Positions 27,149 to 39,592 of a stretch of 64,000 bases of DNA are shown here, one piece after another. The notes under the pieces were generated by a model, which searched no databases, had not been told where the DNA came from, and saw only the letters and a program-made list of their open reading frames with translations. A program made the position numbers and the translations under genes. The DNA is from an uncultured beta proteobacterium. GTDB taxonomy: Bacteria > Pseudomonadota > Gammaproteobacteria > Burkholderiales > Burkholderiaceae_C. Location: positions 1 through 64,000 of the forward strand of contig CAJAES010000116.1 of the NCBI GenBank assembly GCA_903938815.1, given 5' to 3'. Numbering within the stretch: position 1 is the first letter of the stretch; every line of letters begins with the position of its first letter.

Positions 27149-27224
27149 GGGTCGTTAGCTCAGTCGGTAGAGCAGCGGACTTTTAATCCGTTGGTCGCGT
27201 GTTCGAGTCACGCACGACCCACCA
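27149..27224 (+). tRNA. tRNA-Lys (anticodon TTT)
   Basis: A 76-base cloverleaf: acceptor GGGTCGT pairs with ACGACCC. The D-arm is GCTCAGTCGGTAGAGC. The anticodon loop is CTTTTAA (anticodon TTT) in a GCGGA/TCCGT stem, and the T-arm contains GTTCGAGTC. The 3' CCA is encoded. All conserved positions are present. Confidence 0.98.
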
Positions 27225-27246
27225 AAACCGCTACAATGCGCGGTTT
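27225..27246 (+). promoter_or_regulatory. Hairpin with a -10-like box between the two tRNA-Lys genes
   Basis: AAACCGC (27225-27231) and GCGGTTT (27240-27246) form a perfect 7-bp inverted repeat whose loop is TACAATGC. The loop carries a TACAAT -10-like hexamer (27232-27237). It could act as a terminator of the first tRNA, as a promoter of the second, or as a processing signal. Confidence 0.45.
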
Positions 27247-27287
27247 CCGAGGATGTTTTCCGGGTACGTTTCCGGCAAGACAGCTCC

Positions 27288-27363
27288 GGGCTCTTAGCTC
27301 AGTTGGTAGAGCAGCGGACTCTTAATCCGTTGGTCGCAAGTTCGAATCTTGCAGGGCCCACCA
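27288..27363 (+). tRNA. tRNA-Lys (anticodon CTT)
   Basis: A 76-base cloverleaf: acceptor GGGCTCT pairs with AGGGCCC (one G-T pair). The D-arm is GCTCAGTTGGTAGAGC. The anticodon loop is CTCTTAA (anticodon CTT), and the T-arm contains GTTCGAATC. The 3' CCA is encoded. The anticodon stem and loop region is almost identical to the tRNA 63 bases upstream. Confidence 0.98.
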
Positions 27364-27566: not shown

Positions 27567-28619
27567 ATGTCGAGCCTTCAAACCTCCCCCGCCCTCCAGG
27601 GCAGCCTGCTTGCGCTGCTCGCCGCCGCACTGTTCGGGCTGAGCACGCCTCTGGTGCAGCGCTTCGGCGCGGGTCTCGGGCCGTTCACCACGGCGGCGCT
27701 TCTGTATGCAGGTGCCGCAGCCGTGGCCTGGGCGCTGCGCCGACCGCCGGCCCGCGAGGCGCAGCTGCGCCGCGGCGATGCGCCCCGGCTGCTCGGCATG
27801 GCCGCCATGGGCGCGGTGATCGGGCCCGTGGCGCTGGCCTGGGGCCTGCAGCGCACCAGCGGTTCCAGCGCGTCGCTGATGCTGACGCTCGAGGCCGTGT
27901 TCACTGCCATCCTCGCCTGGCGCTGGTACGGCGAGACGCTGGACCGCCGCGTCATCGCCGCCGTGCTGCTGCTGCTCGCAGGCGGGGTGGCCCTGGTGCT
28001 GGAGCAGGGCCTGGCGGGCCAGGTGCAGTTGCTGGGCCTGCTGGCGGTGCTGGCCGCCACGGTGGCCTGGGGTGTCGACAACACCTTGTCGCGCGGCGTG
28101 GCCGACCGCGACCCCGGCCAGGTGGTGCTCGCCAAGGCGGCGCTGGGCACGACAGCCACGCTGCTCGTCGCGATCGCGGCCGGCGAGCCCATGCCCGGGT
28201 GGCCCGCCGCTGCGGCCTTGCTGGCCGTAGGCGCCACGGGCTACGGCCTGAGCCTGAGGTTCTACCTGCTGGCCCAGCGCGCGTTCGGCGCCGGCCGCAC
28301 GGGCTCGGTCTTCGCCTTCGCACCCTTCATCGGCGCGCTGGGTGCGTTCGCGCTGGGCGATCGCTCGGCCTCCTGGCTGATGCTGCTGGGCGGATTCCTG
28401 ATGGTCTGCGGCGTCCTGCTGCATCTGGCAGAACGCCACGAACACCAACACGCCCATGAGGCGCTGGCGCACGAGCACGCGCATACCCACGACGACGGGC
28501 ACCACCTGCATGCGCACGCGGTGCCGCCAGCAGGCGCTCACAGCCACTGGCATCGGCACGACCCGATGCAGCACGCGCACCCGCACGTGCCGGATGCGCA
28601 TCACGTGCATCGGCACTGA
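27567..28619 (+). CDS. EamA/DMT-family transporter with a histidine-rich C-terminal tail
   Basis: A 350-residue protein of ten predicted helices in two EamA repeats (about residues 10-145 and 150-285). The tail from about residue 290 to the end has more than twenty histidines (HEHQHAHEALAHEHAHTHDD; GAHSHWHRHDPMQHAHPHV; HHVHRH). Related DMT proteins with such tails are known in proteobacteria, and a role in metal binding or metal export is inferred, not shown. The substrate of the core is unknown. The gene stands alone before the arsenic island. Confidence 0.85.
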   Translation: MSSLQTSPALQGSLLALLAAALFGLSTPLVQRFGAGLGPFTTAALLYAGAAAVAWALRRPPAREAQLRRGDAPRLLGMAAMGAVIGPVALAWGLQRTSGSSASLMLTLEAVFTAILAWRWYGETLDRRVIAAVLLLLAGGVALVLEQGLAGQVQLLGLLAVLAATVAWGVDNTLSRGVADRDPGQVVLAKAALGTTATLLVAIAAGEPMPGWPAAAALLAVGATGYGLSLRFYLLAQRAFGAGRTGSVFAFAPFIGALGAFALGDRSASWLMLLGGFLMVCGVLLHLAERHEHQHAHEALAHEHAHTHDDGHHLHAHAVPPAGAHSHWHRHDPMQHAHPHVPDAHHVHRH

Positions 28620-28774
28620 ACCGGGCTCGTCCCGAGCACCTCACGCGCATCAACCGTGAGGCGCAGGCGGGGTGGTTCGTGAGCCAGGGCCCCCTTGACC
28701 TGCCTCAATGCCGGCCCGCACACCCGGGGCGCAGAATGAATTTCGACCCGCAACCTGCGGGTCAGGAGTTCGCG

Positions 28775-29317
28775 ATGAACACACGCATCAGCCTCACACA
28801 CGCCGCCTTCGGCCTCATTGCACTCGTGGCACTCGCGGGCTGCGCCCAGGCGCCCGTCGATCACTCGGCGCACCAGGCCGCCGGCGCGCCCGGCGCGGGC
28901 ATGGACATGGGCATGGGCGCCGGCATGGGCGACCACATGGCCAGGATGGACACGCACATGAAGGCCATGCGCGAGATGCACGAGAAGATGGCGCGCGCGC
29001 GGACGCCGGAGGAGCGTCAGGCGTTGATGGACGAGCACCGCAAGCTCATGCGCGAGGGCATGGTCATGATGGGCGGAATGCAGGGCATGGGCATGGGCGC
29101 CGGTCCTGGCCCCGGTTCAGGTCCTGGCGCCGGTCCCGGTGCTAGTTCTGGTCCCGGCACCGGCACCGGCACCGGCGCCGGTCCGGGCGGCGGCATGGGC
29201 GCTGGCATGAAGGGCATGGGCGGCCATCACCAGATGATGGAAAAGCGCATGCAGATGATGCACTCGATGATGCAGATGATGATGGACCGCATGGAGATGC
29301 CGGCGCCCAGGCCGTGA
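28775..29317 (+). CDS. Met/His-rich lipoprotein, putative metal-binding
   Basis: A 180-residue protein of unknown family. It starts at 28775 after a good AGGAG site. A signal peptide ends in the lipobox ALAGC. The mature protein is very rich in methionine, histidine and glycine: MDMGMGAGMGDHMARMDTHM and, at the C-terminus, MMEKRMQMMHSMMQMMMDRM. A Gly/Pro/Ser/Thr linker of about 40 residues built from hexanucleotide repeats (29101-29190) divides these segments. Methionine clusters of this kind bind Cu(I) in CopA/CusF-type proteins, so periplasmic copper or arsenite binding is an inference. It lies 83 bases upstream of the first arsR. Confidence 0.7.
   Translation: MNTRISLTHAAFGLIALVALAGCAQAPVDHSAHQAAGAPGAGMDMGMGAGMGDHMARMDTHMKAMREMHEKMARARTPEERQALMDEHRKLMREGMVMMGGMQGMGMGAGPGPGSGPGAGPGASSGPGTGTGTGAGPGGGMGAGMKGMGGHHQMMEKRMQMMHSMMQMMMDRMEMPAPRP
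29101..29190 (+). repeat. GGTCCT/GGCACC-type hexanucleotide repeat in the lipoprotein gene
   Basis: Imperfect hexamers of the GGTCCC/GGCACC kind, in frame, encode an alternating PG/SG/TG stretch. The best run is three tandem GGCACC units around 29155-29174. Confidence 0.8.
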
Positions 29318-29338: not shown

Positions 29339-29393
29339 TTGACGGGCACGCGCGGAGCCGTCAACATTCTTCGTAATTCTACGAAATACGAAG
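29339..29393 (+). promoter_or_regulatory. ArsR-type promoter and operator before arsR
   Basis: TTGACG (29339-29344) and CAACAT (29362-29367), 17 bases apart, form a likely sigma-70 promoter. Immediately after it TTCGTA-ATTC-TACGAA (29370-29385) is a perfect inverted repeat and TACGAAG (29387-29393) adds a third half site. The CGTAnnnnTACG core matches the inverted repeats bound by ArsR repressors. It lies eight bases before the arsR start. Confidence 0.75.
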
Positions 29394-29400
29394 GATCCCC

Positions 29401-29703
29401 TTGGGCAGAGCCCGTTGCGCCCCCGCCGCCCCCGAACTCGACGCCGACGAACTGGCCGCGCTGCTGAAGGCGCTGGCCCACCCGGCCCGCATCCGTCTGC
29501 TGCAGCACCTGGCGCGCCAGGGCAGTTGCTATTTCGGCAACCTGTCTGACGTGACCGGTCTCGCGGCCTCCACCACCTCTCAGCATGTGAAGGTGCTCAG
29601 GGATGCCGGCCTCGTGCTGGGTGCGGCCGAGGAGCAGCGCACCTGCTACTGCGTGAACCCGGCCCGGCTCGATTTGCTCAAGCGGCTGGTCGGGGCGCTC
29701 TGA
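29401..29703 (+). CDS. arsR: ArsR-family metalloid-responsive repressor
   Basis: A 100-residue winged-helix repressor. The recognition helix is near residues 52-66 (TGLAASTTSQHVKVLRDAGL). Cysteines at 43, 82 and 84 (GSCYFGNL; RTCYCVN) are candidates for As(III) binding; the classic ELCVCDL motif is absent. The start is TTG at 29401 because no ATG fits and the operator ends just before it; GAAGGA is a possible ribosome site. It is the first gene of a six-gene operon and probably represses it from the adjacent operator. The MFS gene starts one base after its stop. Confidence 0.85.
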   Translation: MGRARCAPAAPELDADELAALLKALAHPARIRLLQHLARQGSCYFGNLSDVTGLAASTTSQHVKVLRDAGLVLGAAEEQRTCYCVNPARLDLLKRLVGAL

Positions 29704-29704
29704 G

Positions 29705-31111
29705 ATGCGCCTGCCACACCGCACCGGAACCGTCGCGGCGCTGGGCACCGCGCAGACGCTGGCCTGGGCCTCCACCTTCTATCTGCCCGCTATCCTGGCC
29801 GCGCCGATGGCGCGCGATCTGGGCGTTCCGGTCCCCACGGTCTTCGCCGCCTTCTCGCTGGCCTTGATCGTCTCGGCCCTGGTCGGGCCGCTGGCAGGCC
29901 GGACGATCGACCGCCGTGGCGGCCGCCCGGTATTGATGGCCACCAGCGTGATGTTCGCCGCCGGCCTGGTGGCGCTGGCCTGTGCACAGGGCCCTGCGAC
30001 GCTGTTCCTGGCGTGGGTGCTCATCGGCCTGGCCATGGGCTCGGGCCTGTACGAGGCCGCATTCGCCACGCTGGTGCGGCTGTACGGCCACGATGCCCGC
30101 AACACCATCACCGGCATCACGCTGCTGGCGGGCTTTGCCAGCACCGTGGGTTGGCCTCTGTCGGCGTGGATGGAGACGCAGGTGGGCTGGCGCGGCGCCT
30201 GTCTGTCCTGGGCCGGCCTGCACCTGCTGCTGGGCTTGCCCCTGAACGCCTGGCTGCCTCGCGCCGCCGTGGCGGGCGCTGGTGTCGGCGCAGGTGCAGG
30301 TGCGGGTGCAGGTGCAGGTGCAGGTGCAGGTGCAGGCGTGCCTGCTGTCGCTGTCGCGTCCGGGTCGGCCGATGCCGCGCGGCCAGCGGTTCCGGTCGAC
30401 AACGCCGCATCCGCATCCGCATCTGGATCCGGATCTGCATCTGCATCTGCCTCTTCATCTGCACACACACCCGCCGCCGCGCCAACCGCCCGTTGGACGA
30501 CCGCCCTGCTCGCGTTCGTGTTCGCGGTCACGTGGTTCGTCAGCACGGCGATGGCCACGCACTTTCCGCGCATGCTGCAGGAGGCCGGCGCTTCGCTGGC
30601 CACAGCGGTGGCGGTGGGCGCGCTGATCGGGCCGGCCCAGGTGGCGGGCCGGCTGTTCGAGTTCGGCTTCCTGCGGCACGTGCACCCGCTGCTGTCGGCG
30701 CGGCTGGCAGCGCTGGCGCATCCCGTCGGCGTGCTGGCGTTGCTGGGCCTGGGCACGCCGCTCGCGCCGTTGTTCGCGCTGCTGCACGGCGCCGGCAACG
30801 GCATCCTCACCATCGCCAAGGGCACGCTGCCCCTGGTGCTCTTCGGCCCCCAGGGCTACGGCGCGCGCCAGGGCTGGCTGCTCATGCCGGCGCGCGTGGC
30901 GCAGGCCCTGGCGCCGTTTCTCTTCGGCCTGGCGCTGGACGGCTGGGGTGCAGGCGCGATGCTGCTGTCGGCGGCGCTCGGGCTCCTGGCCTTCGCGGCA
31001 CTGCTTCTGGTGCGTGGTGCTGGCCCAGCTTCCGGCTCTGCGTCCAGCCCTGCGCCTGGCCCTGGGCAAGCCGGCACTTCATCGACCGCTTCGACAAGGA
31101 CCCCCTCATGA
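29705..31111 (+). CDS. MFS transporter with repeat-expanded central loop, ars-linked
   Basis: A 468-residue major-facilitator protein with about twelve helices. The family feature GRTIDRRGGRPVLMA lies in the loop between helices 2 and 3. The loop between helices 6 and 7 (about residues 193-260) is expanded by alternating GA units and an Ala/Ser stretch, both built on DNA microsatellites. It follows arsR by one base and overlaps the MBL gene, so it is under ArsR control. It may export an arsenical, but it is not recognisable as ArsJ (which is encoded separately downstream). Substrate unknown. Confidence 0.8.
   Translation: MRLPHRTGTVAALGTAQTLAWASTFYLPAILAAPMARDLGVPVPTVFAAFSLALIVSALVGPLAGRTIDRRGGRPVLMATSVMFAAGLVALACAQGPATLFLAWVLIGLAMGSGLYEAAFATLVRLYGHDARNTITGITLLAGFASTVGWPLSAWMETQVGWRGACLSWAGLHLLLGLPLNAWLPRAAVAGAGVGAGAGAGAGAGAGAGAGVPAVAVASGSADAARPAVPVDNAASASASGSGSASASASSSAHTPAAAPTARWTTALLAFVFAVTWFVSTAMATHFPRMLQEAGASLATAVAVGALIGPAQVAGRLFEFGFLRHVHPLLSARLAALAHPVGVLALLGLGTPLAPLFALLHGAGNGILTIAKGTLPLVLFGPQGYGARQGWLLMPARVAQALAPFLFGLALDGWGAGAMLLSAALGLLAFAALLLVRGAGPASGSASSPAPGPGQAGTSSTASTRTPS
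30290..30336 (+). repeat. GCAGGT hexanucleotide microsatellite in the MFS gene
   Basis: About eight GCAGGT/GCGGGT units in tandem, in frame, encode (Gly-Ala) repeats. Copy number changes would keep the frame. Confidence 0.9.
30404..30462 (+). repeat. GCATCC/GCATCT hexanucleotide repeat in the MFS gene
   Basis: About nine imperfect hexamers (GCATCC, GGATCT, GCATCT) in frame encode a stretch of alternating Ala/Gly and Ser. Confidence 0.85.
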
Positions 31112-32079
31112 GAACGTCCGTGCGCCGCTGGTTCACCCAGCCGATCCGTCTGTCCGTGATGCCCGTGATGCCCATGATGGCCGTGATGACCATGATGGCC
31201 GTGACAGCGGCCGGGGCCGTCACGGTCGACTTCCGCCCCGTGGCCGACGGCGTCTACGCGCACGTGGGCGACACCGGCGCGCGCAGCGTCGACAACGAGG
31301 GCCTGAACGCCAACATCGGCCTCGTCGTCACGCCTGCCGGCGCGGTGCTGATCGACAGCGGCGCCACGCACCAGAGCGCGCGCCAGATTGCCGAGGCCGC
31401 GCGCCGCGTGACGCCGCAGCCCATCCGCTGGGTCATCAACACCGGCGGGCAGGACCATCGCTGGCTCGGCAACGGCTACTTCCAGTCCCAGGGCGCCGAG
31501 ACCATCGCCCATGCCGCGGGGCGGGCCGACATGGACAACCGCGGCAACGACCACCTGCAAGCCCTGCGCGCCGTGCTGAAGGAACGCGCGGACGGCACCG
31601 TGCCCTCGCTGCCCACGCGCTGGGTCAGCGCGCCTGACGAGCGGCTCGAGTTCGGCGGCGTCGTTCTCGAGCTGAAGCATCGCGGCGGCGCGCACACGCC
31701 CGGCGACATGATGGTGTGGCTGCCGCAGAAGAAGCTGCTCTTCACCGGCGATGTGGTCTACGTGGACCGCATGCTCGGCGTCATTCCCGTGAGCAACACG
31801 AAGCGCTGGCTCGACAGCTTCGCGGCCATCGAGCCGCTGCGGCCCGCGGTGCTGGTGCCCGGCCACGGCCGGGTCACGGATCTGGCCACCGCGAAGGCCG
31901 ACACGCAGGCCTACCTGATGGCGCTGCGGGCGCACATGAAGAAGGCCGTCGACGATGGAACCGACGTGAGCGCGGCCGTGAAGTCCTTCGATACGGCGCC
32001 CTTCATGCGGCTGCTCAATGCGGCCGATCTGATGCCGGGCAACGCCAGCCGCACCTACCTGGAACTGGAGCGCGAGTGA
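31108..32079 (+). CDS. Exported metallo-beta-lactamase-fold protein with a degenerate metal motif
   Basis: A 323-residue MBL-fold protein. The first 36 residues are a signal peptide containing methionine repeats (MPVMPMMAVMTMMAV). The core has GLVVTPAGAVLIDSGA, then TGGQDHRWLGN at residues 112-122 where hydrolases normally have THxHxDH, then GGAHTPGD (H196), FTGDVVYVDR (D215) and VPGHGRV (H253). Two histidines of the first metal site are therefore missing, while the other ligands remain. It may bind one metal or act on an unusual substrate. It is translationally coupled (ATGA, GTGA) to the MFS and ATP-grasp genes. Confidence 0.82.
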   Translation: MRTSVRRWFTQPIRLSVMPVMPMMAVMTMMAVTAAGAVTVDFRPVADGVYAHVGDTGARSVDNEGLNANIGLVVTPAGAVLIDSGATHQSARQIAEAARRVTPQPIRWVINTGGQDHRWLGNGYFQSQGAETIAHAAGRADMDNRGNDHLQALRAVLKERADGTVPSLPTRWVSAPDERLEFGGVVLELKHRGGAHTPGDMMVWLPQKKLLFTGDVVYVDRMLGVIPVSNTKRWLDSFAAIEPLRPAVLVPGHGRVTDLATAKADTQAYLMALRAHMKKAVDDGTDVSAAVKSFDTAPFMRLLNAADLMPGNASRTYLELERE

Positions 32080-33362
32080 ACACCTCGGAGACCCTGAATC
32101 GCGAGTGCTTCTGCTTCAGCCTCGACCGCGACGCGCTGGCGCGGGCACTCGACGCCGACCCGGCGCACCCGGGCCTGTCGGCACTGCTGCAGGAGCGCTG
32201 TCCGTCGGTGTTCTCGGCGCAGCCCGTGTTCGTGGCGGCACCGCACCTGCGGCGCATGGCGGAGGTGGTTCGCGCCGTCGAATCGGTGGTGGCGCTGCCG
32301 GCCTGGCGCGAGCATGCCCTGGCGACGGCGCCGGCCATCGCCCGCTTGAGCCCTCAGGGCGCGCGCGGGGTGTTCTTCGGCTTCGACTTCCACCTCGCCG
32401 AGGGCCGGCTGGGCCTCATCGAGATCAATACCAACGCCGGCGGCGCGATGCTCAACGCGGTGCTGGCGCGCGCGCAGCGCAGCTGCTGCCCAGCGATGGA
32501 CACGCTGCTGCCCGCGCTGGCGGGCGTGCGGGCGTTCGAGGAAGGCATGGTGCGCATGTTCCTGGAAGAGTGGCGGCTGGCCGGCCGTTCGCGGCCGCTG
32601 CGCAGCATCGCCATCGTCGACGAAGCGCCTTCGCAGCAGTACCTGTACCCGGAGTTCCTGCTCTTCGAGAGCCTGTTCGCGCGGCACGGCCTGCAGGCCG
32701 TCGTGGCCGACCCGGCCGATCTCCAGTGGCGCGGCGGCGCGCTGTGGCACGGTGACCTGGCCATCGATCTCGTCTACAACCGGCTCACGGATTTCTACCT
32801 CGATCAGCCCGCCAGCGCGGCCCTGCGCGAGGCCCACGAGCAGCAGGGCGTGGTGCTGACCCCGCACCCCCAGGCGCACGCGCTGTATGCCGACAAGCGC
32901 CACCTCGCCGTCTTCTGCGACGTGGCCCGGATGCAGGCCCTGGGCGTGCCCGAGGCCACCCGCCAGATCCTGCTGGACGCCGTGCCGCACACCGAGGTGG
33001 TGGATCCCGCCGATGGCGAGCGCCTGTGGGCGGCCCGCCGGGGCCTCTTCTTCAAGCCCGTGGCGGGCTTCGGCAGCCGCGCCGCCTACCGCGGCGACAA
33101 GATCACCCGGCGCGTCTGGCAGGACATCCTGGCCGGCGACTACGTGGCGCAGGCCATCGTGCAGCCCGGTGAGCGCATGATCGAGACGGCCCGCGACGCG
33201 CAGCAGCCGATGAAGTTCGATCTGCGCGCCTATGCCTACGCCGGTGAAACGCAATGGGTGGCCGCGCGCGTGTACCAGGGGCAGACCACCAACTTCAGGA
33301 CACCGGGCGGGGGCTTCGCGCCGGTGTTCAGCGATCCCGCCCCCCAGGAGAACCGCCCGTGA
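32076..33362 (+). CDS. ATP-grasp-like protein of unknown function, ars-linked
   Basis: A 428-residue soluble protein. The C-terminal half resembles an ATP-grasp ligase domain: RRGLFFKPVAGFGSRAAYRG (residues about 320-340), YVAQAIVQPGERM, MKFDLRAYAYAGETQW and a Gly-rich end. A mid-protein block FGFDFHLAEGRLGLIEINTN also suggests a circularly permuted ATP-grasp. The N-terminus has a CxC pair (NRECFCFSLD) and a CC pair lies near residue 131 (RSCCPAMD). Such enzymes join a carboxylate to an amine or thiol. The start GTG overlaps the MBL stop. I could not name the reaction. Confidence 0.7.
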   Translation: MNTSETLNRECFCFSLDRDALARALDADPAHPGLSALLQERCPSVFSAQPVFVAAPHLRRMAEVVRAVESVVALPAWREHALATAPAIARLSPQGARGVFFGFDFHLAEGRLGLIEINTNAGGAMLNAVLARAQRSCCPAMDTLLPALAGVRAFEEGMVRMFLEEWRLAGRSRPLRSIAIVDEAPSQQYLYPEFLLFESLFARHGLQAVVADPADLQWRGGALWHGDLAIDLVYNRLTDFYLDQPASAALREAHEQQGVVLTPHPQAHALYADKRHLAVFCDVARMQALGVPEATRQILLDAVPHTEVVDPADGERLWAARRGLFFKPVAGFGSRAAYRGDKITRRVWQDILAGDYVAQAIVQPGERMIETARDAQQPMKFDLRAYAYAGETQWVAARVYQGQTTNFRTPGGGFAPVFSDPAPQENRP

Positions 33363-33673
33363 CGCTGCACCTCAGTTTCCTGATCGTGGCCCTCGCGTGC
33401 TGCTTCGCGCCGGGCGCCGCCGTCGCCAGCCAGGCCCTGGCCTCGGACCTGGGCTGCTACAACTGCCACGGCAACCCGCCCCGCAAGAAGGCCCCCACCT
33501 TCGCCGATCTGGCCCGCACCTATGCGCCCGCAGGCCAGGACGCTGCTTCGCAGAAGAAGCTCGCCGACAAGCTGCGTGACGGCTCCATCTTCAGCCACAT
33601 CGACGCCCACGAGAGGCTGAGCCCCGAGGTGGCCGAACGGCTTGTCCGCTGGATCAGCGAGGGCGCCAAGTGA
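33359..33673 (+). CDS. Small exported c-type cytochrome
   Basis: A 104-residue protein with a signal peptide (cleaved near AVAS) and one haem c motif, CYNCH at residues 33-37. The mature domain is about 80 residues, like monohaem cytochromes c-552/c-553. No methionine follows the haem site; where an axial methionine is expected there is a HIDAHERLS segment, so the sixth ligand may be histidine. It sits between the ATP-grasp gene and arsA with GTGA overlaps on both sides. It may carry electrons in the periplasm for the MBL protein or another partner (inference). Confidence 0.8.
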   Translation: MTLHLSFLIVALACCFAPGAAVASQALASDLGCYNCHGNPPRKKAPTFADLARTYAPAGQDAASQKKLADKLRDGSIFSHIDAHERLSPEVAERLVRWISEGAK

Positions 33674-35604
33674 ACATCGCCATCGATTCCCCGCTGGCCC
33701 TGCTCCGTCAGGCGCCGCGTTTCCTGTTCTTCACCGGCAAGGGCGGCGTCGGCAAGACCTCGCTCGCCTGCGCGTGCGCGCTGACCCTGGCCGATGCCGG
33801 ACGCCGTGTCCTGCTGGTGAGCACCGACCCGGCCTCGAACCTCGACGAGATGCTCGGCCTGGCCTTGTCGGATCAGCCCCGTGCCGTGCCCGGCGCGCCC
33901 GGCCTGGAGGCGATGAACATCGACCCCGAAGCCGCCGCCGACGCCTACCGCGTCCGCGTGATCGAGCAGATGCCGGCCGGCACCACCGACGCCGAGCGGG
34001 GCGTGGTGCGCGAGCAGCTCTCCGGCGCCTGCACGACCGAGATCGCGGCCTTCGACGAATTCATCGGCCTGCTGGCCGGCGATGCCGCGCGCTACGAGCA
34101 CGTGGTCTTCGACACCGCGCCGACGGGGCACACGCTGCGCCTGCTGAGCCTGCCCAAGGCCTGGACGGGCTTCCTGCAGGGCAACGACCGGGGCGCCTCG
34201 TGCCTGGGCCCCCACTCGGGCCTGAAGATGCGCGAGGAGCGCTTCAGGGCGGGCCTGGGGGCGCTGGCCGATGCGGGCCTGACCGCCATCGTGCTGGTCA
34301 CGCGGGCCGACCGCGGCGCCCTGCGCGAGGCCGCTCGCACGGCCGGGGAACTGCGCTCGCTCGGCCTGGCCAACCAGCACCTGGTGGTCAATGCGGTCTT
34401 CCGCGCCTCGGTGCCCGATGACCGGGTGGCCGCGGCCTTGCAGGCGCTGGGCGACCAGGCGCTGGCCGCACTCCCCGCCGCGCTGGCCGGCCTGCCGCAG
34501 GACCGCGTGCCCCTGCGGCCGTTCGACATGGTGGGCCTGCCGGCATTGCGCGCACTGCTGCGGCCGGCGGTCGCAGCGGCGCAGGCTGACGATGCTGCCG
34601 TGATCACCGCTTCGCCCTCGGCCTCGACCTCCGAGGCATCGACATCGACATCGACATCGGCGCCGGGCGATGCAACGCAGCCGCTGGCGTCGCCCGTCAT
34701 CGCGTCCGCCGGCCTGCAGGCTCCGCACTCGCCGCAGTCACTGCAGGCGCTGGCCGACGAACTGGCCCTGAAGGACCGGGGCCTCGTGATGGTCATGGGC
34801 AAGGGCGGGGTCGGCAAGACGACCATCGCGGCCGCTCTGGCGGTGGCCCTGGCCGAACGCGGCAAGACCGTGCACCTGTCCACCACCGACCCCGCCGCGC
34901 ACCTGGCCGCCACGCTCGACGGCAGCCTGCCGGGCCTGCAGGTGGCCCGCATCGACCCGGCCGCCGAGACGCAGCGCTACATCGACAAGGTCATGGCCAG
35001 CCGTGGCCGCGAGCTCGACGACGCCGGCCGGGCCCTGCTGCTGGAGGACCTGCGTTCGCCCTGCACCGAGGAGGTCGCCGTGTTCCATGCGTTCGCGCGC
35101 ACCGTGGGCGAGGCGCGCAGCGCGTTCGTCGTGCTCGACACCGCGCCCACCGGGCACACCCTGCTGCTGATGGACGCCACCGGCGCGTACCACCGGCAGA
35201 TGTCGCGCGAGTTCGAGGGCGGGGCCGCGGCCGGGCGCTTCGTCACGCCGCTGATGCGCCTGCAGGACCCCGACTACACCCGCATCGTGCTGGTGACGCT
35301 GCCCGAGATCACGCCCGTCTCGGAGGCCGCCGGCCTGCAGGACGATCTGCGCCGGGCGAGCATCGAGCCCTTCGCCTGGGTCGTCAACCGCAGCCTCGCG
35401 GCCAGCGGTACGACCGACCCCCTGCTGTTCGCGCGCCTGGCCGGGGAGCGTGCGCAGATGTCGCGCGTTTCGGGTTCCCTGGCGCGACGGGCCTACGTGG
35501 TGCCCTGGGTGCCCGAGCCGCCGGTGGGCGTTGCCGCGCTGCGTGCGCTCACCAGCACCAGCAACGCCATCGGCACCGGCACCGGCACCGGCGCGCGAGA
35601 CTGA
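33670..35604 (+). CDS. arsA: Arsenite-stimulated ATPase ArsA (two-domain)
   Basis: A 644-residue ATPase with two homologous halves: GKGGVGKT at residues 23-30 and again at about 377-384, each with a DTAPTGHTL switch block. The metalloid-site cysteines known in E. coli ArsA (113, 172, 422) are present here as C121 (GACTTE), C178 (ASCLG) and C465 (SPCTEE). It energises an arsenite exporter; ACR3, encoded convergently nearby, is a possible partner, as no ArsB or ArsD is present. The linker (about residues 310-345) and C-terminus carry Ser/Thr or Gly/Thr repeats from microsatellites. GTG start. Confidence 0.93.
   Translation: MNIAIDSPLALLRQAPRFLFFTGKGGVGKTSLACACALTLADAGRRVLLVSTDPASNLDEMLGLALSDQPRAVPGAPGLEAMNIDPEAAADAYRVRVIEQMPAGTTDAERGVVREQLSGACTTEIAAFDEFIGLLAGDAARYEHVVFDTAPTGHTLRLLSLPKAWTGFLQGNDRGASCLGPHSGLKMREERFRAGLGALADAGLTAIVLVTRADRGALREAARTAGELRSLGLANQHLVVNAVFRASVPDDRVAAALQALGDQALAALPAALAGLPQDRVPLRPFDMVGLPALRALLRPAVAAAQADDAAVITASPSASTSEASTSTSTSAPGDATQPLASPVIASAGLQAPHSPQSLQALADELALKDRGLVMVMGKGGVGKTTIAAALAVALAERGKTVHLSTTDPAAHLAATLDGSLPGLQVARIDPAAETQRYIDKVMASRGRELDDAGRALLLEDLRSPCTEEVAVFHAFARTVGEARSAFVVLDTAPTGHTLLLMDATGAYHRQMSREFEGGAAAGRFVTPLMRLQDPDYTRIVLVTLPEITPVSEAAGLQDDLRRASIEPFAWVVNRSLAASGTTDPLLFARLAGERAQMSRVSGSLARRAYVVPWVPEPPVGVAALRALTSTSNAIGTGTGTGARD
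34637..34659 (+). repeat. CATCGA microsatellite in the arsA linker
   Basis: Nearly four tandem CATCGA units encode alternating Ser and Thr between the two ArsA halves. A second small run (CGGCAC, three units) lies at 35571-35592 near the C-terminus. Confidence 0.85.
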
Positions 35605-35652: not shown

Positions 35653-36703
<1,051 letters not shown>

Positions 36704-36833: not shown

Positions 36834-37163
36834 TCAGCAGCGGGCGCAGCCGATGGCGACCGGCGCGACCTCGCAGGGCCGGCCCTCGCAGCAATGCGCC
36901 GTGAGATAGCCCAGCAGCTCGTTCATGCGCGCCAGTTCGGGCCGGTAGATGAGGTGCCGGCCGTCGCGCTGCTGCGAGACGAGGCCGGCCTGCGCCAGTT
37001 CCTTCAGGTGGAAGGACAGCGTGGACGCCGGCACGTCCAGCGTGGCCGAGAGCGCGCCCGGCGTCAGCCCCTGCGGCCCGGCGCCCACGAGCGCGCGGAA
37101 CACGCGCAGGCGCATGCCCTGGGCCAGTGCGGCCAGCGCGGCGACGGCGGCGGTCTCGTCCAT
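36834..37163 (-). CDS. arsR: ArsR-family repressor with C-terminal cysteine cluster
   Basis: A 109-residue winged-helix repressor. The recognition helix is [20 protein letters not shown] (residues 39-58). The C-terminus carries five cysteines, C91, C92, C97, C106 and C109 ([15 protein letters not shown]). C-terminal vicinal cysteines are used for As(III) sensing in the AfArsR type. The start at 37163 has AAGGAG six bases upstream. Unusually it lies inside the minus-strand operon, between arsJ and acr3, rather than at its head; it probably also regulates the site at 39568-39592. Confidence 0.88.
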
Positions 37164-37173
37164 GGCGGCTCCT

Positions 37174-38496
37174 TCAGTCGGGCTTGGCAGGCGTGGCGGG
37201 CAGGGCGGCGGCACGCTGAGTCGGCAGGGACAGCGTGACGACCCAGCACAGCACCAGCATCACGGCCGAGCCTGTGAGCGCGCCCGGAAGGCCCCAGCCC
37301 TGGTACAGCAGGCCCGACAGCAAGGTTCCGATGAAACGGCCCAGCGCGTTCGCGGCGTAGTAGAAGCCGACGTCCTCGGCGGCCTTCTCGCTGCCGGCGT
37401 AGGCCAGGATCAGGTACGAGTGCACCGAGGAGTTGACGGCGAACGCGAAGCCGAACACCGCGAGGCCGCCCACCACCACCCACTCCAGGTGCGGCACCTG
37501 CGCCAGCACCAGGCCGGCCAGCACCATGGGCACCAGCGCCAGTGCGGCCGACCACGCTCGCGCGGCCGGCACCTCGGTGCTCAGGCCGTCGTCGCTGCGG
37601 CGCACCAGCCGGGGCGCGAGGCCCTGCACCACGCCGTAGCCGATGGTCCACAGCGCCAGGAAGCCGCCCACCATGGTGAAGTTCCAGCCCGCCGAGTACA
37701 GGAACACCGGCACGCCGACGACGAACCACACGTCGCGCGCTCCGAAGAGCGCCACGCGCGCGGCCGCCAGCCCGTTGATGCCGCGGTTCTTGGCGAACAG
37801 TTCCTTCGCCGACTTCGACGCCTTCGCCTTGCCCATCAGCGGCGGCACGAAGGCCAGCACGCCGACCAGCACGATCGCCAGCAGGGCCGCCATCGTCCAC
37901 AGCGAGACGCGGAACCCGAGCGTCTGCAGCAGCAGGCCGCCGAGGAAGAAGCCCACGCCCTTCATCGCGTTCTTGCTGCCGGTGAAGAAGGCCACCCACT
38001 TGAAGAGCTGGCCCGAGGCTGTGCCCGCCGTCAGCTTGATGGCCGACTTGCTGGCCGTCTTGGTGAGGTCCTTCGCGACGCCGCATACGCCCTGCGCCAG
38101 CACCACCCACGCAACCGACATCACGGCCGTCCACTGCGGCGAGAGTGCCGACAGCAGCAGGAAGCCCGTGATCTGCGTGATCAGCCCCACGACCAGCATG
38201 CGCTGGATGCCGTAGCGCGTGGCCAGCCAGCCGCCGATGAGGTTGGCCGCGATGCCCGCCGCCTCGTACAGCAGGAACAGGAAGGCGAGCGTGAAGGGCG
38301 AATAGCCGAGCCGGTAGAAGTGCAGCAGCACCAGCATGCGCAGCGCGCCGTCGGTGAGCGTGAAGCCCCAGTAGGCGGCCGTGACGATGGCGTAGTTGCG
38401 CGTGCCGCTGGAGGCGCCCGCAGTGGCGATTCCGGACCCGGCGCCAGGCCCGCCATCAACACTGCGGGCACTATCGCGGCTGCGGTCGGCAGTCAT
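37174..38496 (-). CDS. arsJ: MFS transporter ArsJ (1-arseno-3-phosphoglycerate exporter)
   Basis: A 440-residue major-facilitator protein with a poorly conserved 32-residue N-terminus and then NYAIVTAAYWGFTLTDGALR, typical of ArsJ. Other blocks are GVAKDLTKTASKSAIKL and GSKNAMKGVGFFLGG. ArsJ exports the unstable product formed when GAPDH uses arsenate in place of phosphate, giving arsenate resistance. It follows the GAPDH gene by four bases and precedes arsR by ten, supporting the pairing. Confidence 0.93.
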   Translation of the reverse strand: MTADRSRDSARSVDGGPGAGSGIATAGASSGTRNYAIVTAAYWGFTLTDGALRMLVLLHFYRLGYSPFTLAFLFLLYEAAGIAANLIGGWLATRYGIQRMLVVGLITQITGFLLLSALSPQWTAVMSVAWVVLAQGVCGVAKDLTKTASKSAIKLTAGTASGQLFKWVAFFTGSKNAMKGVGFFLGGLLLQTLGFRVSLWTMAALLAIVLVGVLAFVPPLMGKAKASKSAKELFAKNRGINGLAAARVALFGARDVWFVVGVPVFLYSAGWNFTMVGGFLALWTIGYGVVQGLAPRLVRRSDDGLSTEVPAARAWSAALALVPMVLAGLVLAQVPHLEWVVVGGLAVFGFAFAVNSSVHSYLILAYAGSEKAAEDVGFYYAANALGRFIGTLLSGLLYQGWGLPGALTGSAVMLVLCWVVTLSLPTQRAAALPATPAKPD

Positions 38497-38500
38497 GGCC

Positions 38501-39544
38501 TTACAGGCCCTGCGCGTGCATGTGGCACGCCAGGTCGACCATGCGGCAGGCGTAGCCCATCTCGTTGTCGTACCAGGCGTAGACCTTCAGCAGCGTGCCG
38601 TCGGTCACCAGCGTGGAGAGCGCATCGACGATGGCGCTGCGCGTGTCGCCCGCGTAGTCTGCGCTCACGAGCGGGCGTTCCTCCACCCCGAGGATGCCCG
38701 CCAGCGCGCCGCGCGCCGCGGCCGTGAAGAGCGCGTTCACCTCGGCCGCCGTGGTGGCGTGCTTCAGTTCGAACACGCAGTCCGTCAGCGAGGCGTTGAG
38801 CACCGGCGCGCGCACCGCGTGGCCGTCGAGCTTGCCCTTCAGCTCGGGGTAGATCAGCGCGATGGCGGTGGCGCTGCCGGTGGTGGTGGGCGCCAGGCTG
38901 AGCATCGCGCTGCGGGCGCGGCGCAGGTCCTTGTGCGGCGCGTCCACGATCAGGTTGGTGTTGGTCGGGTCGTGGATGGTGGTGATCTGGCCGTGGCGGA
39001 TGCCGAGGGCTTCGTGGATCACCTTCACCACCGGCGCCAGGCAGTTGGTGGTGCACGACGCCGCCGTGACGATGCGGTGCTGCGCGGGCGCGTAGAGGTG
39101 CTCGTTGACGCCGACGACGATGTTCAGCACGCCGCCCACCTTCACCGGCGCGGCAACGATCACGCGCTTCGCGCCGCGGTCGAGGTGGCCCTGCAGCGTC
39201 TGCGGCGTCAGGAACTTGCCTGTGCATTCCAGAACCACCTCGACGCCGAGATCGCCCCAGGGAATCTCGGCGGCCGTGGCGTGCGACGAGAACGACAGTT
39301 CGTGCCCGTCGATGCGGATGCGGTCCTCGCCCTCGGCGGCGATGTCGGCGCGCCAGCGGCCCTGCACGCTGTCGAACGCCAGCAGGTGGGCCGTGGCGGC
39401 CGCGCCGCCCTTGAGTTCGTTGAGGTGCACCACCTCCAGCCGGTTGCCGCCGCGCGGGTCGTCCGCGGGCCGATGCGCGGCGCCCAGGGCCGCACGCAGC
39501 GCCAGGCGGCCGATGCGCCCCATTCCGTTGATGCCGACCCTCAT
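38501..39544 (-). CDS. gapdh: ArsJ-associated glyceraldehyde-3-phosphate dehydrogenase
   Basis: A 347-residue GAPDH with the Rossmann start [13 protein letters not shown] and the catalytic cysteine C164 in [12 protein letters not shown]. It forms 1-arseno-3-phosphoglycerate from arsenate for ArsJ to export. Alternative start MKAARR at 39574 would place the codon inside the palindrome, so 39544 is preferred; its upstream GGGGTGG is a modest ribosome site. Its immediate neighbour is arsJ, not the glycolytic genes, so it is the dedicated arsenate-resistance copy. Confidence 0.92.
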
Positions 39545-39567
39545 GACCACCCCGTTCCGCCTTGCGG

Positions 39568-39592
39568 CTTTCATGTTTCGATGAAAGTCGAA
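39568..39592 (-). promoter_or_regulatory. Candidate ArsR operator upstream of the GAPDH-arsJ-arsR-acr3 genes
   Basis: CTTTCAT (39568-39574) and ATGAAAG (39581-39587) form a perfect 7-bp inverted repeat separated by GTTTCG; TTCGA and TCGAA (39577-39581, 39588-39592) form a second overlapping one. It lies 24 bases upstream of the chosen GAPDH start. Confidence 0.55.

Follow-up and report, generated by a model that had tools for sequence, protein, structure and literature searches.

An ArsR-type operon that joins an ArsK-like exporter and ArsA to a predicted glutathione-synthetase-fold ligase recurring beside arsenic, copper and mercury genes

Introduction

The window, a stretch of 64,000 nt from an uncultured beta proteobacterium, carries a run of six genes in which arsR and arsA enclose an MFS exporter, a metallo-beta-lactamase (MBL)-fold protein, an ATP-grasp ligase and a c-type cytochrome. 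An earlier note on this DNA could name no described arsenic pathway that uses the four enclosed genes as a set and proposed that they might build, export and process an arsenic conjugate, or protect a thiol. The locus thus raises the question of what such genes contribute to a resistance operon, and whether arsenic is their particular concern. Our leading answer, held at roughly even odds (about 0.5), is that they constitute an accessory thiol or ligand module on an ArsR-repressed, ArsK-like/ArsA metal(loid)-resistance operon, with the ligase as its core and a chemistry that is predicted. No paper describing the MFS-MBL-ligase-cytochrome set was recognized among the literature matches listed, as far as their visible text extends; the ATP-grasp protein of PMC7826186 is a member of another pathway.

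Results and discussion

Organization and regulation of the operon

Examination of the open reading frames bore out the place, order and spacing claimed for the six genes, all of which lie on the forward strand. The first, arsR (29401..29703, TTG start), encodes a 100 aa ArsR/SmtB-type repressor that scores 65 bits against the HTH_metalloreg model NF033788 (cut-off 55) and carries cysteines at position 43 and in a CxC pair within TCYC. It is separated by 1 nt from the gene for the 468 aa MFS exporter (29705..31111, ATG start), which is followed by those encoding the MBL-fold protein (31108..32079, ATG start), the ligase (32076..33362, GTG start), the small cytochrome (33359..33673, GTG start) and ArsA (33670..35604, GTG start), each of these four overlapping its predecessor by 4 nt. 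With such tight spacing the genes are likely to share one transcript, and the claim of a single ArsR-type operon is supported. Its genes have a G+C content of 69-74%, similar to that of the window (70%).

The same claim had placed a promoter and an ArsR palindrome ahead of arsR, of which the palindrome was found and the promoter was not. The candidate operator, TTCGTA-N4-TACGAA with the spacer ATTC (29370..29385, forward strand), is an exact 6-4-6 inverted repeat 15 nt upstream of the TTG start, and constitutes the sole match in 64 kb when up to two mismatches are allowed. Shuffled sequence gave a mean of 0.17 matches, with at least one in 15 of 100 shuffles, hence the palindrome is suggestive of an ArsR operator rather than decisive. 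A crude scan for sigma-70-like promoter hexamers returned none.

Arsenic genes of known families

The product of arsA is a two-domain arsenical pump-driving ATPase with P-loop matches in both halves, and scores 698.4 bits against TIGR04291 (cut-off 650). The MFS exporter, which contains an Ala/Gly/Ser-rich insert at about residues 186-262, reaches 231.3 bits against the MFS_ArsK model NF033733, below its cut-off of 400. Since a shorter relative with 64% identity, encoded at a locus of the same genus (L108), also attains 255.6 bits only, we regard the window protein as ArsK-like, though not ArsK by that test. The exporter is therefore not outside known arsenic biology.

Convergent with the operon is a second group of ars genes, all on the reverse strand and each above its own cut-off: acr3, encoding an arsenite exporter (35684..36703; TIGR00832, 416 bits, cut-off 283), a second arsR (36834..37214; NF033788, 57.7 bits, cut-off 55), arsJ, encoding an organoarsenical exporter (37174..38496; NF033734, 523 bits, cut-off 400), and the gene of the ArsJ-associated GAPDH (38501..39574; NF033735, 537 bits, cut-off 450). 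With these neighbours, the six-gene operon forms part of an arsenic island, in which ACR3 is the likely partner of ArsA.

Fold and conserved residues of the ligase

At the sequence level the ligase could not be linked to a characterized ligase by Pfam, NCBIfam or GSP_synth profile comparison. The window protein had no Pfam or NCBIfam match at an E value of 1, including to PF03738 (GSP_synth), for which no match was listed for 45 aligned family members either, and a PF03738 search of the window's own genome did not recover it. Profile comparison with four GSP_synth proteins was poor (probability 1.25%, E 0.042), a sequence search of the PDB gave a single chance-level match, and the circularly permuted ATP-grasp type 2 family of Pfam matched 7 of the 45 sequences weakly (best 1.9e-6).

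A structural model built from the 45 aligned sequences (pLDDT 91.3, pTM 0.91) matched, over nearly its full length, glutathione synthetases, homoglutathione synthetase, glutathionylspermidine synthetase and YgiC/YjfC, far in excess of the next folds; on this model, the ATP-grasp-type ligase that had been proposed appears genuine, with a glutathione-synthetase fold. In the weak GSP_synth profile alignment, D104, E116 and N118, residues of ATP/Mg type that all but one of 104 aligned ligase sequences retain (103 of 104), stand opposite the invariant Asp, Glu and Asn. G102, kept in 98 of the 104, stands opposite an invariant Arg, which suggests that the chemistry of the ligase may differ. The protein would accordingly be a putative active ATP-grasp C-N ligase, probably with another acceptor or donor.

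The MBL-fold protein and the cytochrome

The MBL fold was recovered by PF00753 at 71.4 bits (cut-off 22.7), and a hydrophobic N-terminus, judged by eye, suggests export. As had been noted from the sequence, the metal motif is altered: NTGGQDHRWLGN occupies the place of HxHxDH, the motif of canonical MBL hydrolases, whilst H196, D215 and H253 are kept. The replacement is itself conserved, with N111, G113, Q115-W119 (QDHRW), G121 and N122 at the HxHxDH site invariant in all 20 aligned relatives.

The cytochrome contains the single CxxCH previously reported, scores 20 bits against PF00034 (cut-off 21.3) and, again by eye, appears to be exported. Among the sequences searched it had three clear relatives (73%, 51% and 40% identity), one of which (at L231) had no other gene of the module around it. 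Weak matches at E 0.001 were found in 101 of 148 related genomes, as expected of a small cytochrome c.

Distribution of the ligase amongst metal-resistance loci

The genomic company of the ligase was scored with a panel of metal genes, recognized by their similarity to about 25 proteins at thresholds chosen by hand; the panel can under-count, having missed the ArsK-like MFS of L108, and some of its members (permease, CDF) need not be metal-specific. The ligase was present on 31 of 72,556 plasmid records, and amongst six plasmid loci with inspected neighbours, five carried panel genes, with copper genes at four loci and mercury genes at two. In named genomes, the best 80 of at least 572 relatives, whose titles lean to Burkholderiales and Pseudomonas, had a panel gene in the locus in 44 cases and within 3 kb in 36; arsenic genes occurred in 18 of these loci and copper genes in 25 (both sums of combinations). 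A class-wide sample placed the ligase in 13 of 321 genomes, that of the window included, and at six of the 12 other loci a metal gene lay no more than 3 kb away. In these genomes, 18 random windows contained none (of 20 control stretches, two were non-existent and two short).

A quick tree of 129 rows, in which 50 of 126 inner branches had less than 80% support, included 100 non-redundant cysteine-bearing sequences, 23 of them from arsenic-only contexts (the window amongst them) and 18 from copper- or mercury-only contexts, rows with both contexts, neither, or zinc genes only being left unlabelled. At least seven changes between the arsenic and the copper/mercury contexts were needed on this tree. 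The reading of the operon as arsenic-only is thus rejected on the copper and mercury loci on plasmids and in genomes, and with 36 of the 80 close relatives lacking a panel gene anywhere in the locus, the arsenic specificity implied earlier is not upheld. Wide occurrence without arsenic genes had been named as the finding that would separate the accessory genes from arsenic detoxification; this was borne out in part, by the copper and mercury loci of the ligase and by the MBL protein, since arsenic genes accompany the latter at one of 15 class-sample loci in the panel count. Copper genes were likewise present at one of the 15, and a sixteenth MBL locus outside the panel count (L132) has ACR3.

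Several relatives placed in the window's genus encode parts of the module in other combinations; permease here denotes an ArsP_1 protein, and thioredoxin one of the MTH895/ArsE kind. For instance, permease-MBL-thioredoxin-ligase was found at L106 and, with a rhodanese in addition, at L109, whilst the order at L107 is permease-MBL-ligase-thioredoxin-rhodanese. L230 carries permease-MBL-thioredoxin-rhodanese-cytochrome-CDF (the rhodanese assigned by eye) and L108 carries ACR3-MFS-ligase-OsmC-CDF, the latter repeating the pairing of an MFS exporter with the ligase that was claimed for the window. Elsewhere, cytochrome-ligase-CDF (L037) and permease-ligase-thioredoxin-CDF (L025) were seen, and ACR3 lies directly beside the ligase in six loci. 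Within 3 kb of the ligase, 99 non-redundant cysteine-bearing loci had ACR3 (12), thioredoxin (7), permease (6), CDF (5), MBL (3), OsmC (3) and cytochrome (1), none of which appeared in 22 cysteine-less loci or 18 controls.

A fixed four-gene module was rejected, as the MBL protein and the ligase co-occur in four of 321 class-sample genomes, about two being expected, and within that sample stand together only in the window, the nearest pair otherwise being 26 kb apart (G272). The idea that the cytochrome regularly accompanies the ligase was likewise rejected, with short exported CxxCH open reading frames near the ligase in two other loci only (L020 and L066), by a scan whose crude signal filter missed the close cytochrome relative at L037.

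This variability bears on a passenger view, in which the accessory genes would have everyday metabolic roles, be carried along on metal islands and plasmids, and make no contribution to arsenic resistance. Gene sets that differ from locus to locus, the scarcity of the MBL protein and the cytochrome near the ligase, and the 44 of 80 close relatives with no panel gene within 3 kb (36 with none in the whole locus) would all be explained in this way. We nevertheless consider it improbable, because metal genes are absent from 18 cysteine-less loci described below and from the 18 random windows, the ligase directly adjoins ACR3 or the permease in several hosts, and the window operon is coupled by overlaps.

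The cysteine set and the cysteine-less branch

The N-terminal CxC pair attributed to the ligase is present, and belongs to a larger set: C11, C13, C137 and C138 all occur in 94 of 104 aligned sequences. All four are missing in L113, L115 and L179, and L114 retains C11 without the other three. In the class and phylum samples together, metal genes lay within 3 kb at 9 of 20 cysteine-bearing loci versus 0 of 18 cysteine-less ones, after five mixed loci were dropped (one from the class sample, one from the phylum top set and three from the phylum cysteine-less set), which indicates that the cysteine set goes with metal islands. Amongst 12 loci taken from genomes related to that of the window, metal genes were found at four of seven cysteine-bearing, one of four cysteine-less and none of one mixed locus; the single cysteine-less case, L112 with copper genes, was so counted because its ligase match begins at residue 140, the cysteine region simply being missing.

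In the phylum sample, 128 of 398 genomes had a ligase profile match at E 1e-10, and 20 cysteine-less loci were hand-picked by score and contig size from about 115. The ligase gene overlaps or nearly abuts TIGR04283- and TIGR04282-like genes in seven of these 20, all in family f241, where the two proteins of L288 pass their cut-offs (256 and 169 bits) and the others were called by similarity to L288. NCBIfam annotates both families as 'arsenosugar biosynthesis glycosyltransferases'. An MFS gene, of another kind than that of the window, precedes the ligase by 0-701 nt in 12 of the 20, whilst neither glycosyltransferase-like genes nor an MFS were found at L295. ArsS (TIGR04167) was above cut-off in all 20 cysteine-less-ligase genomes picked first and, in a test joining samples of 398 and 397 genomes with counts uncorrected for ancestry, was present at E 1e-60 or better in 96 of 115 presumed cysteine-less-ligase genomes versus 20 of 282 others, cysteines having been checked in the fetched loci and the remaining genomes called cysteine-less by exclusion. 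ArsS was also found in 15 of the 18 families that have the cysteine-less ligase. The association of this ligase with ArsS is a lead confounded by ancestry, as f241 and a few other families supply most of it.

These data would suit a ligase that is an arsenic- or metalloid-conjugating enzyme, building an amino-acid or peptide organoarsenical in a manner akin to a late arsenosugar step, with the adjacent MFS exporting the product. That reading seems unlikely, given that shared ancestry could explain both the seven f241 loci and the ArsS genomes, that the glycosyltransferases owe their names to annotation, and that on contigs carrying both, ArsS and the ligase are tens to hundreds of kb apart (e.g. 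G474, G503, G472 and G561). Furthermore, no ArsS reaches E 1e-60 in the window's genome, and only two of 13 cysteine-bearing genomes have it at this threshold, one of the 13 (G731) having the CxC pair but not the CC pair.

Very doubtful is a third possibility, a ligase that binds metal or is gated by it and works through its cysteine set rather than through a new small molecule: the four cysteines are mostly present or absent together, and the model has isolated strand bridges, at residue 16 and residue 134, that could bring the two pairs close, but the retained ATP-grasp-type residues argue for catalysis and L114 breaks up the set. Housekeeping glutathione synthesis is unlikely because an ordinary GshB is encoded elsewhere in the same genome, and a defence or phage system was rejected with no padloc match for ligase, MBL protein or cytochrome and one weak PHROGs match, to the MBL protein only.

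Proposed function

In the preferred reading, that of an accessory thiol or ligand module, arsenite or another soft ion would release ArsR from the operon, and the exporter and ArsA would lower the ion, steps suggested by families of known function, in part as named by NCBIfam. The ligase would most likely be an ATP-consuming enzyme that makes an amide bond on a thiol such as glutathione or gamma-glutamylcysteine; its product would serve as a ligand or conjugate for the thiol-binding ions As(III), Cu(I) and Hg(II) and could be removed by the neighbouring exporter. The conserved cysteine set may provide a binding site for the ion or a thiol, and the exported MBL protein and cytochrome may process the product once it has reached the periplasm, outside the inner membrane. 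As the steps from the ligase onwards are drawn from fold, conservation and company, the build-export-process scheme of the earlier note survives as a proposal for soft metals generally and not for arsenic alone.

A broader version is tentative, with the odds against it: an undescribed family of four-cysteine, glutathione-synthetase-fold ligases might serve general soft-metal(loid) resistance, its thiol ligand or conjugate being exported by arsenic, copper and mercury exporters and processed by QDHR-type MBL proteins and the cytochrome, whilst a cysteine-less sister branch would serve arsenosugar metabolism. Should the ligase make a metal-linked thiol product, it would represent an inducible, mobile bacterial counterpart of phytochelatin- or trypanothione-like chelation, for arsenic and copper, and a function would be found for proteins at present labelled hypothetical. 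Even if it does not, arsenic-specific and general soft-metal genes have been separated in a kind of resistance operon of which little has been described, and a conserved MBL subfamily whose metal site is rebuilt is available for study.

Comparison with known systems

ArsK is reportedly an arsenite efflux MFS of the arsR-arsK type, which the window resembles in having an ArsR-type repressor beside an ArsK-like MFS, and from which it differs in the sub-threshold score of that MFS and in the MBL, ligase, cytochrome and ArsA genes that follow. With ArsA-ACR3 and ArsAB efflux it shares a two-domain ArsA above cut-off and an ACR3 79 nt away on the opposite strand; here, however, arsA ends another operon, convergent with acr3. 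The best NCBIfam matches of the MBL protein are TIGR04558 and TIGR04559, SoxH-like/quinoprotein relay proteins with which it has an exported MBL fold in common, but at 149 and 158 bits it falls below their cut-offs of 300 and 280, and GxQDHR replaces HxHxDH. The ligase, in its model, shares a full-length fold with eukaryotic-type glutathione synthetase, glutathionylspermidine synthetase and YgiC/YjfC, and its Asp, Glu and Asn align, weakly, with those of GSP_synth; it is set apart from these enzymes by the lack of a Pfam or NCBIfam match, by a Gly in place of the aligned Arg, by a metal-island context and by four cysteines that most of its close relatives retain.

Gene neighbourhoods and length variants of the ligase

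A DinG-like helicase gene was found 36-849 nt 5' of the gene for the glutathione-synthetase-fold ligase in seven loci (L092, L094, L098, L100, L101, L115 and L168), and this pairing is a recurring non-metal neighbourhood. The ligase ORF of Acidovorax sp. T1 (locus L016, 8977-10626) encodes 549 aa, including an additional C-terminal stretch of about 120 aa, and ORFs of similar length were present in L025 and in Stutzerimonas loci. For G108:C1 (loci L014 and L116), a second match to the ligase, interrupted by a stop, was identified within the same genome.

Features of the arsR-arsA cluster and its left flank

Low-complexity Ala/Gly/Ser/Thr stretches enlarge both a loop of the MFS protein (window 30260-30490) and the inter-domain linker of ArsA (about 34590-34720), the repetition of short units within them suggesting slippage. 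Approximately 2 kb left of the cluster, a pair of tRNA-Lys genes (27149-27363) represents a possible integration site. A transporter-like ORF (27567-28619, + strand), the tail of which is rich in His, precedes a Met/His/Gly-rich lipoprotein-like ORF (28679-29317, + strand), which ends 83 nt 5' of arsR; judged by eye, both look metal-related.

The QDHR motif of the window MBL-fold protein was shared with that encoded on a Pseudosulfitobacter plasmid (L024), in an ArsR-permease-thioredoxin-MBL-OsmC-CDF operon near genes annotated as arsenate reductase (azurin).
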